Of a DNA stretch of 64,000 nt, positions 3,189 through 24,598 are shown piece by piece. Made by a program: the position numbers and the translations under genes. The notes under the pieces are model-generated. The model ran no database searches, had not been told where the DNA came from, and saw nothing but the letters and a program-made list of their open reading frames with translations. Origin of the DNA: Candidatus Peregrinibacteria bacterium (lineage in GTDB: Bacteria; Patescibacteriota; Gracilibacteria; UM-FILTER-43-11). The DNA lies in the NCBI GenBank assembly GCA_016934215.1, contig JAFGTE010000013.1:1-64000 (forward strand), given 5' to 3'. Position 1 is the stretch's first letter. The number at the start of each line of letters is the position of its first letter.

Positions 3189-6100
3189 ATGTTTACTAAT
3201 CCGATCCGCAAGATCGCCTCGAAAATTGTCATGGTTTCCATGCTTTTTTCCGTGCTTGCGCCATTAGCGGGTAATTCCGCAATTGCGTCCGGTCCGCTTG
3301 GAACCCTCCGTGTGGGCTTTGACCATGTCGATGGTGGTTATACCATTAAGAACGTCCGACAGGAAGTTGTGTCCGACAAAGATTCCGGCGACTGCTCATA
3401 TCAAAGCAGCGGTTATTTTACCTGCAATGAGATCCTTCCCATCGGTACTTATACAGTCACTTTTGACGATGTCGACGGTATGATTACTCCTGATCCGGCT
3501 CATGCTGTGGTCCTCGAGTCATCGGTGACAGAGGCATACGGTGATTACGTGGCTGAAAATGTCCCGACTATTGGTGTATTAGGTATTGGTGTCAATCATA
3601 TAAATGGAGGTTATATTATCAAAAACGTCCGACAGGAACAGGTGGCTGATGTGAGTGCTTCAAGTTGCGGCCCGCTGCAGCCCAGTGGCTACTATCTGTG
3701 CAGCCAGAGCCTGCCTTTCGGTACCTATACCGTTGAATTTGATTCCATACAAGGTTATCAGACTCCGCCTACTGCCCATGTCGCGTTAACAGACAACTAT
3801 TCTTTTAATGTTGATTATGTCGCTAACGCTCCAACGCTTTATACCTTGACCGTTGGTGTGGACCTGGCACAGGGCGGCTTTACGATTGATAATGTAAGAC
3901 AGGAAACTGTGGCTGATGTGAATCCTGTCAGTAGCTGCGGCCCGCTTCAGCCAAGCGGTTATTACCAGTGCAATCAGATTCTTCCACCCGGTACGTATAC
4001 TGTAAGATTTGATTCCGTTAATGGTTATAATACCCCGGACGATATTCACGTCGCACTCACACAGAGCGGAAATATCTGGGCCAACTACATAGCTGAAGCT
4101 CCCGTTTTGCCTACGCTGACTGTCGGCGTTAATCTGGCACAGGGCGGCTTTACGATTTACAATGTCCGTCAGGAAGCAGTTACTGAATATGATCCTGTAA
4201 CGGATTGCGGCGCACCGGTTGACGGTTACTATATGTGCGATGCCGTGCTTCCTGCAGGCACTTACACAGTACGATTCACTTCAGTTGATAATTATGTTAA
4301 ACCATCTGACATTCATGTAGCGCTCACGCAAAGCGGTACGGTCTGGGGCTTTTACAGCACCATTCCAACCGGTGTCATTCAGGTTCAGGTGGTTAATCAA
4401 AATAACGAACCTATCACCGATTTACCTGCCAACGAATGGCAGTTAAAACGCTGCAGCAATTCCAATCCTGCTTCCTGTACCGATATTATGGCAAGCGGCG
4501 GGGTTGGCGGTGTTTATGACAATATTCTTTACAATACCTATCGTATTCACTTCCCGAATCCCGTCGTTCCGGCCGGATACAGCGGGCGCACTGTTCTGCC
4601 TAGTGTTTATCAGGTTCTTGACGCAGAACACAATACCCTTACTTTTACCATCAAATATACTGAAACAAGTCAGCAGACAGGTGTCGCTTACGTCAACGTA
4701 CGCACTACTCCGGTACCGGCTAACGTTACCATGGTGACTACCGATCCTGCCCGGCCTGATCAGCAGGGAGTTACCAGCGATCTGGTTGCGGCTACTCCTA
4801 TTTATGATCTTTCTGATCCTGATCGCTTCACGTTACCTACGACTGTTTCCGGTTTCACGGTACCAACCGATTACTATATTATATGTAATCCTGTTCCGGG
4901 CGGCTATCTGGCCCCTGCTAATATTGTTGTTTCCAATGCTCAGTATGCCGTCAACACAGAATACCTTGCCGGTACTTGCGTGTACACCCAGACCAATGAA
5001 GTCGTTACCATCACGATTGATACCGTCGGCATTGAAGAGGCAGCCATTTATGTAGATGGCGTTGAAGTACGTGACACAAACGATGATTCAGAAATCTCTG
5101 TCGTTATCACGACTGAAGAAGAGCACGTGATTTCTTTTGAAGACAAAGACCCTGCTCATTTCACTACCCCCGTCGACATTACTATTCCAGCAGACAGCCT
5201 TGATTCCAGCATGACCCCTGATCAGCTCAGATATCTGGGTTACTATGTACCGCTTGGTAATCTGGCTACGGCTGAAATTAATACTTATAACGAAACCGGC
5301 TGGGTTTACCTGGTCATTGGTGGCGGTGGTGACAGCACTATGTGGAATGTCGGTCTTGCCACTCCTGGTGCTCCTTCACTGATCGTTCATTTTAATGAAA
5401 CAGTCAGTCATGAGTTCCACTTTCAGGATCGCAATCCAAATTACTATCTGCGGGCTGTTCCTGTTACCAATCCGAATACTCCAGGATTTTCTGTTTCACA
5501 GAATATTAGCCAGTCAGGTAATGATGTTACCCATTTCCAGGAATACTACAGCTATGACGGCAGTGAATCACTCGATACGGTTTACCTGACCGGCGATTAT
5601 ATCGCTCAGGCCAATGCCGCTTTCTTCCATGCCAGAACGACCAATCCTGACCCGATCTTCGGTGAAATCTATCTGGATATCAACGGAGAACCAATCGAAA
5701 CTTTAGTTCCCGGCGCCCAAGTCTGGATCCGCGTGTTCATCTCTGATGTGGTCAACGATAGTGACACCACCAGCTTCCAGTCACCTATTACTGTTGACTC
5801 TCTCCAATATACCGCTGTACCAGCTAGTTATGATTTAAGTACCTATACTCCGAGTTCAACGATTTACGATCTTGAATCAACTTATCAGCCTGGCGTTGGT
5901 TCTAATTTGATCGTTCAGCTTATTCCTGCCGGAGTAGGCAGCGCTGGCTTAGATGTTACGCTTGATAGCACTATCACCCAGCAAACCATTGATAATGCCG
6001 GAACTTTTCAGACAACTTTCTTAGATATTGATCCTAATGCGGACCATACTGTCAGTTGTCCTGCTGTTCCGAATTACGCCACCCCTAACGACCTGTTTAT

Positions 6101-9100
6101 TGCCTCTGAACTCATTCAGCCTGGTGATAACTTTGCTTATTGTACTTATATACCTCTTATCTGGGCCGCTGAGATCCTGATTGAAACATCCGCCGACGAC
6201 AATATTAACTTCTCAGCCCCAACCATCATTCAGGTAAACGGTGTCAATCAGCCTATTGTATGGACTGATGATTCAGTTGCAGGAACCCCTGCTACCCGAA
6301 GTGTCTGGATTGATACCCGGGATACCAACATCATCATTTACGGTGATATGCCTGGTTACGTTACCCCTGCTTCTGATGTCGTCAATGTAACTCCTGGTTC
6401 CAGCTGGCAAGATCCAAATCCGGCCAATATATTCAGTGGCCATTATACCCTGCCTCAGGCCGGTGCGGACCTGATCTTCCACCTTCGTGAACTGGATCCG
6501 GACGGTGGCCCCGTGCCAAGCACTGATGTCACGGTCAACGTGACCACTCAGCAGTCTGATGCTAATGGTGACACCACCTTTACCGATGTGGATACGACTC
6601 AGGTAATCGATATTAGCTTTGGCGATCATCCGCTGGGAACCGGCGCTTACGTGACTCCTCTGCCTCTTAATTTCCAGGCCAACGAACTCCAGGGCGGTCA
6701 AACTTATGAATTCTATATTTACTACGTACCCGTTGCCTTTGCGGTCACCCTTGATGTAGAAACTCTTGATGAACTGACTCAGCTGATCAACGTCAACGGT
6801 GCCATCCGCTTAGTGGTTAACGGTACTTCTACCTTATATGGTTACGGTACGGCTCAAATCGTAGTCAGTACGGACCCTCAATTCAGCTACCTGATCGACT
6901 GGGGTCCAACCAATCCTGCCAGCCAGTATATTGAACCAGCGGTTGATCCGCTTCCGGTGAATGTCATCGGAATGACGGCCGGTCAGACCAGAAATATTGA
7001 TGGTCTTTACAGACTCTGCCAATCCGGCAACTGTGAAGTGGTTACCATCACGGCCTGGGATCAAACCGGAACTAATATTCTAAATACGGTTGATATCACC
7101 GTGAACGGAACCGTTGTTGGCAGCGGCCAGCATACCGGTACTTACGATGTCGGTGCCGTCCTCAACATTGCATTTGAAGATGTTGATACACATGGTGTTC
7201 CTGACATTCATGTAAATGGCGTATCTGTGGGCACCAGTCATACCACTTCGTATACGGTTTTAGATGCACCCAGCCCCAACACCGTTGATGCTTACTTCCC
7301 GCTTGAGGGAGGCATTGGCTTCAACGTTGCTACCCGGGACAATCAGGGTAGTGCGCTGACTCAAAATATCACTCACGGTATCACCGGTACCGAAACTACT
7401 GAACCGACTCCTGCCTTCTTCGTGGTTGATGAAGATGATCTAACTAGTTACACCATTCATTTTTCTGATCGTGTCGGTTATATCACTCCGGGTTCTGTAA
7501 TCGTTAGCAATCAAGCTATCAACAGCATTCCGGCTAACGTAACCATTACCAATAACGGTGTAAATTATGTCGCCGGTACCCAGCTCAATGCGGGAGATAC
7601 CTATGATATAACGGCCACTTATGTTCCTCACTTTGTGATTGAAAAGAACATTACCAGTGAGCAGACCATTACCAATAATAATAAACGTGTTGATTATCAG
7701 ATTGTCGTTACCAGACATCCTGATACGGCTCCCGGACCGATGAGCATTACGCTGCAAGATACGATTTCTAATAGCGGCCGCACCTTAAGCGGCAGCAATG
7801 GAGGTACCATGAGCGTGGTTCCTCAGAACAGTTTCTACAGCATTTGCAGCAATGGCTGCGGAGATATTACGGCCGGACCGGTAACGATTAATATCGACAA
7901 TCCTGGTAATTCAGTGACCATCACTTACCAAACCCTTTCCAATAACAGCTCCATTCCGGCTAATCAGAGCTCTGACTTCACCAATACATTAACCGGTAAT
8001 TACAGTGACGGCGGACAAACTGTTACCGTTACCACCAATGCTACTGTTAATGTTCTTGCACCACCTACTTCCGGTCCTACTCCTCCTGGTGGCGGCGGAC
8101 CTAGTGGCGGCGGCGGTCACATCCTGATTCAGGGTGATATGATCCTTGAAGTCACCAAACTGGTCAGCATCAATAACCGCGACTGGTTCGATGCTTCCGA
8201 TGAAGAAGATCCTTTCATCCTTCGTGAACGCTACCATGGCCCGCTTTACACTAAAGTGAATGTTAAGAACCTTGGCCAGGTAACTGCTACCAATATTCGC
8301 TTCACGGAAGGTTTTGACCAGGGAGATTCTGAAATTACTTCCAGTGAAATCGACAATGTCGAAGGGGAAGAAGGATTTGAATACAATGAAACCACTGGTG
8401 TCATGACCATCGACAGCTTGCCTGTTGGCGGAGAGATTAACTTCTCTTACGAACAGACTGTTGACGAAGACGGCACCCGGGGTGAACTGGCTGAAGAATA
8501 CCTTGTACTCGAAGGTTTCAGTACCCGCCTGAGCGCCAGTCAGGACGGCCTGACCAAACATGGCATTGGTGATCACTACCCAAGCTGGCTGACAGCTGGC
8601 ACACCGGAAACGCCTTATGAAGGCAGTCTGCTTGAACTTGAAATTGATACCGACCGAAATCCTGCCAGAATCGGTGACGAAGTGGTCTACCATATTACCG
8701 CTACCAACAATGCCGACTTTGACCTGACCGGCGTCATCATCACCTGGGATTACGATGAAAATGCCCTTGATATCTTAAATCCTTTTGGCGGCCGCAATAA
8801 CGGTACCGAGATCCACTGGGATCGGGGTATCTTAAGACCCGGTGAATCGGCTGAATATCAGGTACGCGTTCGCGTGGCTGACAGCGCGCCAATTGGCAGC
8901 AATGTCCGAACGACCGCCCGTGGCCTGGTCAATGAACTGGAAAATCCTGCCGCCGCTGAACACCTCCTGAGCATTCTTGCCGCCATTGGTGACGGACCGA
9001 TCGAACTGGCTCAAACGGGTATGCCTACCTTCCTGCTGATCCTTGCTTCTATCTTCGCCTACCTTACCTATACAAATACCGGCAGACGGAGATACCTGGC

Positions 9101-22475: not shown

Positions 22476-23744
22476 ATGGACTTTTACAAAAACACGCTTT
22501 TTAATATGCAGAAAGCAGCCAAGATTATGAAACTTGATAAAGAGTCACTGGAAGTGCTTTCTTATCCGCAGAAAACACTGATTGTTTCGGTGCCGGTGCG
22601 GTTGGATGACGGTACTCTCAAAGTATTTGAAGGCTATCGCGTTCAGCACAGTGAACTTCGCGGGCCTTTTAAAGGAGGCTTTCGGTATCTGCCGGATGTA
22701 TCACTGGATGAGATCAAAGCCCTGGCCACCGAGATGAGTTTTAAATGTGCTGTGGTGGGCATTCCTTATGGTGGTGCCAAAGGGGGTGTGAAGTGTAATG
22801 CGAAGCAAATGAGCGAAGGTGAACTGGAACGGCTTACCCGCAAATATGTGCAGGCCGTTTATCAAATCGTCGGTCCCCGGCATGACATTCCTGCCCCTGA
22901 CATGTACACCAATCCTCAGATCATGGCCTGGTTTATGGATGAATATTCCAGATTGGTGAATGAATACCGGCCTGGGGTAGTAACCGGTAAACCGATTGAA
23001 GTCGGCGGCTCACTGGGGCGCGACACAGCCACCGCTCAGGGAGGCGTGTATGTACTGGAGGAATATCTGAATTCTCTGGATAAAAAAGCCCGTAAAAAAA
23101 ATTACACTGTCGTTGTTCAGGGCTTTGGAAATGCCGGCATGCACGTGGCCGACATTCTGCATGGGCTTGGTTTTACCATTGTGGGCGTCAGCGACTCCAA
23201 AGGCGGTCTTTACAATCCCAAGGGCCTTGATATTCAACAAGTTATTAAAGATAAAAAAGCCAAGGGGTCTGTGACAGAATGCAAGGAGGGTAAATGTGTT
23301 AAGCCGCATGAGATTCTTGAGAAACCCTGCGATATTCTGGTTCTGGCCGCGATGGAAAATCAGGTCACGGAAGCAAACATGAAACAGATCAAAGCACAGA
23401 TTATTCTGGAACTAGCCAATGGTCCGACCAGTTTTGAAGCAGATGAATACCTGGCTAAAAAAGGCGTGGTCATCATTCCCGATATTCTGGCCAATGCCGG
23501 TGGGGTAACCGTTTCTTATTTTGAATGGCTGCAGAACCAGCAGGCTTATTACTGGCCGCTTGAAGAGATCAAAATGAAGCTCAAGCGCATCATGCAGGAG
23601 TCTTTTGCCCGCGTGCATCATTTTAAGGAGGAACATAAATGTACAATGCGTGAAGCGGCTTATGTTTCAGCCTTTGACCGCCTGGAAAAAGCCATGAAAC
23701 TCAGAGGTTCAGGGGCTAATTTGAGGTGCAAGATTTATCACTAG
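22476..23744 (+). CDS. Glu/Leu/Phe/Val dehydrogenase
   Basis: GPFKGGFRYLPDVSLDEIKALATEMSFKCAVVGIPYGGAKGGV; VQGFGNAGMHVA. Confidence 0.93.
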   Translation: MDFYKNTLFNMQKAAKIMKLDKESLEVLSYPQKTLIVSVPVRLDDGTLKVFEGYRVQHSELRGPFKGGFRYLPDVSLDEIKALATEMSFKCAVVGIPYGGAKGGVKCNAKQMSEGELERLTRKYVQAVYQIVGPRHDIPAPDMYTNPQIMAWFMDEYSRLVNEYRPGVVTGKPIEVGGSLGRDTATAQGGVYVLEEYLNSLDKKARKKNYTVVVQGFGNAGMHVADILHGLGFTIVGVSDSKGGLYNPKGLDIQQVIKDKKAKGSVTECKEGKCVKPHEILEKPCDILVLAAMENQVTEANMKQIKAQIILELANGPTSFEADEYLAKKGVVIIPDILANAGGVTVSYFEWLQNQQAYYWPLEEIKMKLKRIMQESFARVHHFKEEHKCTMREAAYVSAFDRLEKAMKLRGSGANLRCKIYH

Positions 23745-23748
23745 ATTT

Positions 23749-24066
23749 AAGAAAGGGGCGACAGCTTGCGTGATGCGTACTGCCGCCCCCATGGGTACCT
23801 TCTGCAGGTTGCGCTGCGACGTGGCGCGCCGGACCATGCAGCCCTTCAAACCTTGAAGAGAGTTTTTGGCGTAGCGGGGTTAACTCTCATGAGGCTCCCA
23901 CCCCTCCAGGTGCAAAACTGTTCGTAGTGTGCCCACACACACAAGGGCGGTAACCCTAACGACAGTTTCTTCGTCTCGCTTTGTTGGTGCCCAGCGGGGG
24001 GAGAGTCCGCCGGGCTAAAGTATGCAGATGCCGCTAGGCATACTAACGTCCTTTCTCTTTGGAGAC
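23749..24066 (-). ncRNA. GC-rich structured RNA of unknown family
   Basis: Own minus-strand promoter (TTGACA 24095-24100, TAAAAT 24073-24078), at least six local hairpins, terminal hairpin ggggcgacag/ctgccgcccc plus U-tract; no convincing long ORF. Confidence 0.6.
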
Positions 24067-24157
24067 TTGTATATTTTACCATTTATTTATATTTTGTCAA
24101 TAGTATGTTTACTAAATGTGTTACACTGTTTTTTAGCAATCTATAAAACAATAAAAT

Positions 24158-24598
24158 ATGACCCTCAAAGAACAAATCGTGGCCGATATGACGGCCGCTA
24201 TGAAATCCAAAGATCCGAGTCTGAGTACCCTGCGCATGCTCAAGGCGGACATTATGAAATACGAAGTCAGTGGTGCTAATATGGTGGCCACGGATGATGT
24301 CGTTTTAGATCTTATCAAGCGCGCTATTAAGCAACGCAAAGAAGCTGCGGAAGGTTTCACGCAGGGCGGGAATAAAGAGGCCGCCCAGAAAGAACTGGAC
24401 GAAATCAAGATTTTAGAGCATTATATGCCCGAACAAATGAGTGAAGAACAGCTGAAGAAAATTGTTCAGGAAGTAATTACTCAGCTGTCTGCCGGACCCG
24501 CTGACTTTGGAAAGGTAATGGGCGCCGTGATGGGTAAGGTGAAAGGTCAGGCGGATGGCGGACTCGTCAATAAAATCGTCAAAGAGTTGCTGTCTTAA
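24158..24598 (+). CDS. YqeY/GatB-like domain protein
   Basis: MTLKEQIVADMTAAMKSKDPSLSTLRMLKADI; YMPEQMSEEQL; GKVMGAVMGKVKGQADGGLVN. Confidence 0.92.
   Translation: MTLKEQIVADMTAAMKSKDPSLSTLRMLKADIMKYEVSGANMVATDDVVLDLIKRAIKQRKEAAEGFTQGGNKEAAQKELDEIKILEHYMPEQMSEEQLKKIVQEVITQLSAGPADFGKVMGAVMGKVKGQADGGLVNKIVKELLS

Follow-up and report, generated by a model that had tools for sequence, protein, structure and literature searches.

A structured non-coding RNA of about 318 nt is predicted on the minus strand between an ELFV dehydrogenase (GDH) gene and a YqeY gene of a Candidatus Peregrinibacteria bacterium. With moderate confidence, we regard it as a real, independently transcribed gene that acts in trans and represents a new family, of very rare occurrence, in the class containing Candidatus Peregrinibacteria. 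The RNA is probably real and very rare because a distant relative keeps much of its fold; the most probable reading is an orphan RNA family that is genuine though seldom encountered. Orphan structured ncRNAs are of a known kind; as a family, this one appears to be new. A literature search yielded nothing on this RNA and nothing for Peregrinibacteria in combination with noncoding RNA.

Genomic context and proposed transcription unit

The window, i.e. the whole stretch of 64,000 nt that was analysed, originates from a genome of 1.01 Mb in 34 contigs and carries the feature on contig C14 of this genome (G000). The neighbour at lower coordinates is the GDH gene (22476-23744, plus strand; Pfam PF00208, E 1e-75), the other one is yqeY (24158-24598, plus strand; Pfam PF09424, E 1e-41). 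The stand-alone unit between them consists of a sigma-70 promoter, a GC-rich RNA and a 3′ hairpin. All coordinates of its elements given below refer to the minus strand. The predicted RNA spans positions 23749-24066, with its 5′ end placed by promoter spacing and its 3′ end by the hairpin. The consensus promoter claimed in the preliminary description was recovered as TTGACA (24095-24100) and TAAAAT (24073-24078) with a spacer of 16 nt and a TG extension preceding the second hexamer (match 11/12). This sigma-70 promoter would start the RNA at approximately 24066.

The G + C content is 57.9% for the RNA, 18.7% for the gap toward yqeY and 47.3% and 47.6% for the flanking genes. The RNA had been described as GC-rich against AT-rich flanks; the first part holds, whereas only the upstream flank is truly AT-rich, because the gap with its 18.7% stands against genes of 47.3% and 47.6%. 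The predicted fold energy of the whole RNA is -124.3 kcal/mol, a value attained by 2 of 100 shuffles (z -2.55). The core by itself showed no advantage over shuffled sequences in the window (z -0.94). The RNA would end at a terminator-like 3′ hairpin (23754-23790), with an energy of -25.7 kcal/mol that was equalled by none of 200 shuffles (z -5.18). The earlier claim of a strong terminator is thus justified for the hairpin, but the U-tract following it is short (TTTCTT) and the element was not listed by a simple terminator scan. An 18-nt part of the hairpin (approximately 23766-23783) was also observed in genome G013 (L047 1440-1575), within an intergenic series of GCAGTACGCATCACGCA-type units arranged almost in tandem.

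Predicted secondary structure

Every stem arm named previously was located on the minus strand of the window: AGTATGC/GCATACT (24044-24038/24025-24019), GCCCGGCGG/CCGCTGGGC (24015-24007/23997-23989), AACTGT/ACAGTT (23967-23962/23921-23916), GTGTG/CACAC (23942-23934 with three overlapping GTGTG places/23931-23927), AGAGTT/AACTCT (23887-23882/23864-23859), CTTCAA/TTGAAG (23858-23853/23849-23844) and CTGCA/TGCAG (23841-23837/23806-23802). All of these helices have counterparts in the homologue described below except CTTCAA/TTGAAG, which was consequently dropped as a conserved helix. The pair GTGTG/CACAC does have a counterpart, but is drawn better as GTGY/GCAC.

In the proposed fold, a long-range helix P1, formed by GTCTC (24062-24066) and GAGAC (23973-23977), would close two 5′ hairpins, P2 and P3, and the fold would further comprise a branched P4, a P5 and a P6 domain. 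A conserved, Shine-Dalgarno (SD)-like purine segment AAAGGA (24049-24054) lies ahead of P2, in which GTATG (24039-24043) pairs with CATAC (24020-24024) and the loop contains a conserved AGCGG (24031-24035). P3 is the hairpin GCCCGGCGG/CCGCTGGGC with a loop of 9 nt (23989-24015). P4 (23916-23967; AACTGTCGT/ACG-A-ACAGTT) encloses P4a (GGG/CCC) and P4b (GTGT/GCAC). The remaining elements are a conserved ACCTGG (23906-23911), the invariant P5 (GAGAG/CTCTC, 23858-23888), a block TTCAAGGTTTG (23847-23857) that is invariant between window and homologue, and the P6 domain (CTGC/GCAG, 23802-23841). The P3 loop would pair with a strand before P5, forming a pseudoknot (PK1). Additionally, ACCT within ACCTGG may pair with AGGT (23850-23853) as a second pseudoknot, PK2, which is invariant and shows no covariation. 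Moreover, each member has CCTTT at its 3′ end, to which AAAGG is complementary; this alternative closing helix is used in the unconstrained fold of the homologue.

Comparison with a distant homologue

The distant homologue is located in Candidatus Peregrinibacteria bacterium isolate CSMAG_310 (JAUVDZ010000068.1, 4582-4135, minus strand; L124 in genome G311). It is intergenic, flanked by genes other than GDH and yqeY, and features a promoter of its own (TTGACA-17-TATAGT, 11/12) as well as a favourable fold energy (z -3.54, 0 of 100 shuffles). Just upstream of this promoter, a broken copy of the nearby ABC-transporter ATPase gene (5398-6117) was observed at L124 4733-4624, a sign of rearrangement.

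The starting point for the comparison was an 18-nt seed match, which by itself has an E-value of 0.02 per genome. Around it, the homologue presents GTCTC, AAAGGA, TATG, AGCGG, CATA, GAGAC, AACTGT, AGGGT, GGGCACACT, ACAGTT, ACCTGG, GAGAG and AACTCTCTTCAAGGTTTG in the same order as the window. The local alignment of both sequences scored 183 compared to 128 for shuffled sequences (sd 7.8; reached by 0 of 500). The part left of the seed alone scored 111.5 compared to 82.4 (sd 6.9; 0 of 1000 shuffles), while the 3′ part to the right of it is at chance level (92 of 1000 shuffles as good). A model built solely from the window sequence gave the homologue a score of 14.3 bits (E 0.007; 197 kb searched), and a second collinear piece of it, on P3, a score of 5.3 bits.

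P2, P3, P4 and P6 differ in sequence between the two members while pairing is retained. P1 is unchanged. P2 changes from GTATG/CATAC in the window to ATATG/CATAT in the homologue (one double change), the upper five pairs of P3 from GGCGG/CCGCT to GATGG/CCATC (two double changes), P4 from AACTGTCGT/ACG-A-ACAGTT to AACTGTAAC/GTTACAGTT (three double changes) and the base of P6 from CTGC/GCAG to CTAG/CTAG (two double changes), the primary sequence of the P6 region not being conserved above chance. For PK1, CTCCC (23999-24003) occupies positions 4-8 of the nine-base P3 loop and pairs with GGGAG (23895-23899), whose start lies 11 nt ahead of P5. At identical loop positions the homologue has CTTCC, and its GGAAG begins 13 nt ahead of P5. 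Such complementarity arises in 69 of 20000 shuffles.

Among 49 pairs of P1-P6 and the loop pseudoknot, chosen by hand with both sequences already in view, 38 are the same, two show one-sided and nine double changes, and none is broken. In a core of 21 pairs, all are standard in both members, with three double changes; no double changes were found once the partner was slid by 1-3 positions, and 70 of 500 shuffles matched the observed core values, because two sequences carry little power. The covariation amounts to one comparison, since the family has two members only. The preliminary proposal of a novel structured RNA of about 320 nt is supported by a diverged homologue with compensatory changes and a promoter, in combination with the lack of an Rfam match.

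5′ end and coding potential

Both members carry AAAGGA, followed after 7-8 nt by an AUG inside P2 and by AGCGG in the loop, which is in frame with the AUG (Ser-Gly). The predicted tiny frame of the window (24015-24041, ATG..TAG, MPSGICIL) has its start codon within P2 and comprises 8 codons, that of the homologue (MYTSGFIHIRS) 11 codons. Shuffling the two members yields an SD-ATG arrangement at some position in 26% and 32% of cases, so this feature is a lead only. The homologue also has AAAGGAGGTG, which we take to be approximately the full complement of the anti-SD sequence. Judged from these motifs, the 5′ end may either be bound by the ribosome, whether or not a tiny peptide is made, or be conserved as RNA.

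A conserved protein was rejected because the two members have the frame reading TLFKV in common just within the 18-nt seed, relative to which GGGCACACT, as assessed by eye, lies in different reading frames; the frames are not kept between the members. A 78-aa ORF across the RNA, with its ATG upstream of the -10 hexamer, had no match in Pfam. A sequence AGGGTTACCGC in the window, which we assume to be a T-box-like motif, was discarded, since no T-box family of Rfam matched and the homologue lacks it.

Dual-function sRNAs additionally code for a small peptide, and the RNA resembles them as a structured RNA with a predicted SD sequence and tiny ORF. If it belonged to them, AAAGGA-ATG would be the real start of a tiny peptide and the structured remainder would regulate or respond to its translation. 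The SD-ATG at the matching place in both RNAs, AGC-GG in frame with the ATG and the presumed near-complete anti-SD complement AAAGGAGGTG point in this direction. However, indels separate the frames after Ser-Gly, beyond which the frame is not kept, the AUG lies within helix P2 in both members, the arrangement is frequent in shuffled sequences, a downstream gene for attenuation is lacking and the 5′ segment could be kept as RNA alone. We therefore consider a peptide-encoding RNA unlikely.

In the preferred reading, an independently transcribed ncRNA, the molecule would exert its effect in trans, and its most likely role would be that of a compact scaffold or ribonucleoprotein RNA. Large bacterial RNAs with complex folds often turn out to be catalysts, scaffolds or regulators. 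AAAGGA beside the AUG locked in P2 might mediate contact with the 30S ribosome, a suggestion that, taken on its own, we hold with low confidence. It is a more speculative thought, and one we regard as rather doubtful, that the two RNAs establish a novel class of complex bacterial ncRNAs with pseudoknots, namely a bare promoter-RNA-terminator cassette that travels between small-genome bacteria and acts on the ribosome via its SD-like 5′ segment, switched by the opening of P2.

Distribution and origin

A BLAST search in 98 relatives returned only the window itself. Among 353 genomes of the class, nine including the source genome gave matches at E-values up to 0.05, the foreign ones being 18-37 nt long; upon inspection, the match in CSMAG_310 (G311:C125) was the one that stood apart, due to the ordered motifs around the seed. 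Model R1 (128 positions) scored 148.7 bits in the source genome, 55.0 bits in CSMAG_310 and at most 17.8 bits in all others of the 353 class genomes, while R2 (227 positions) detected two of 343 genomes at E up to 0.1; the scores of the homologue are circular, because both models include an edited copy of it. In a phylum-wide sample of 379 genomes, three besides the source genome reached E 0.05 (best 21.5 bits), but the conserved blocks were absent from their alignments and none is a convincing third member. Six viral pattern scans likewise yielded no convincing member. Pattern loci were scored in full in three sets (49, 67 and 31 loci), and in a further pattern scan for 80 of at least 120 stretches. 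Of the other weak DNA matches in the class, the weak model hits and the pattern hits, those inspected as sequence or alignment, a part of the total, lacked the ordered motifs and mostly lay in coding-looking sequence. The two members in 353 class genomes are a lower bound, because the score of the window-only model was modest and equally distant relatives could be missed. Lack of conservation had been named as an argument against the candidate; one diverged homologue exists, but conservation is very sparse.

In 13 other loci showing both genes, GDH is followed by yqeY with a gap of 20-156 bp in 12 cases, compared to 417 bp in the window. The 13th gap, in genome G001 of the same genus, measures 907 bp; the RNA was not detected there, but a 265-aa ORF lacking any match in Pfam was (L003 1986-2783), so the gap seems to accept varied inserts within the genus. 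In G002, also of this genus, 20 bp separate the GDH and yqeY matches. The comparison with sister genomes, proposed earlier, speaks against the candidate: neither of the two other genomes of the genus carries the RNA, which is, for that reason, dispensable. Since the gaps of relatives lack it, the RNA was presumably gained here or lost repeatedly; either lateral gain or repeated loss would explain the patchy spread, which suggests transfer.

The RNA might also derive from a mobile element or phage, as cargo or relic that is carried between genomes and functions for the element. Its two unrelated contexts, its absence from the nearest relatives and the broken ABC-transporter copy next to the homologue would fit such an origin. 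Yet no integrase, transposase or reverse transcriptase was found among eight adjacent or overlapping proteins tested, and nothing credible emerged from the six viral pattern scans or from phages (10 weak records) and plasmids (one record), where each match covered 5-16% of the query. Cargo is hence rather improbable. We rate as improbable that the locus has no function, being a chance GC-rich insert or a bidirectional terminator between GDH and yqeY with a homologue of chance resemblance. Its rarity, dispensability, two members and a seed of E 0.02 per genome would be expected in that case, but the collinear similarity outside the seed (0 of 1000 shuffles), the promoters matching in both members and the compensatory changes argue against it.

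Comparison with known RNA families

The Rfam scan proposed earlier (Rfam 15, covariance models, gathering score) found no family match in the whole window and hence none above the gathering cut-off at the locus. At E-values up to 10, the locus gave only two chance matches far below the cut-offs, ar14 (15.6 bits vs 58.8) and the hairpin ribozyme (14.8 bits vs 65), and the homologue gave none. The initial failure to recognise tmRNA, RNase P RNA, SRP RNA or 6S RNA agrees with the all-Rfam scans of window and locus, in which none of them, including 6S RNA, matched the locus. RNase P RNA and tmRNA both hold pseudoknots. RNase P RNA (RF00010) and tmRNA (RF00023/ARAGORN) are similar in length to the novel RNA, but lack a sequence match at the locus and have separate copies above cut-off on contigs C10 and C4 of the same genome.

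SRP RNA (RF00169, RF01854), whose large form is structured and comparable in size, did not match the locus either. RF00169 was not detected in the source genome and CSMAG_310 (0 of 2; control genomes 11 of 14), nor was RF01854 in these two, G001 and G002 (0 of 4; control genomes 10 of 14). As SRP RNA went undetected in all genomes checked, the locus is set apart from this family by the models only and not by a separate copy, and the SRP RNA of the class may have diverged strongly or be missing. A highly derived housekeeping RNA, above all SRP RNA, is nevertheless highly improbable: the sister genomes G001 and G002 lack both an RF01854 match and the novel RNA, unlike what holds for a housekeeping RNA, locus and homologue had no housekeeping-family match even at E-values of up to 10, the genome encodes RNase P RNA and tmRNA elsewhere, and the S-domain motif in its familiar form was not seen.

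To our knowledge, few classes of large bacterial RNAs with complex folds are known, and an additional class, occurring in streamlined genomes with little non-coding DNA left and in a patchy distribution suggestive of transfer, would merit biochemical work. According to an excerpt of PMC11706538, the raiA-motif RNA is a structured bacterial ncRNA discussed among ncRNAs with complex tertiary structure and is present in more than 2,500 species. Going by that excerpt, the window RNA resembles it as a structured bacterial ncRNA, but was found in two species and lacks a match to raiA or any other Rfam family.

A minor observation concerns the neighbouring gene: yqeY matches with in-frame TGA codons (1 and 6) were present in G026 and G037 (L025, L026), which fits a recoding of TGA in some members of the class.
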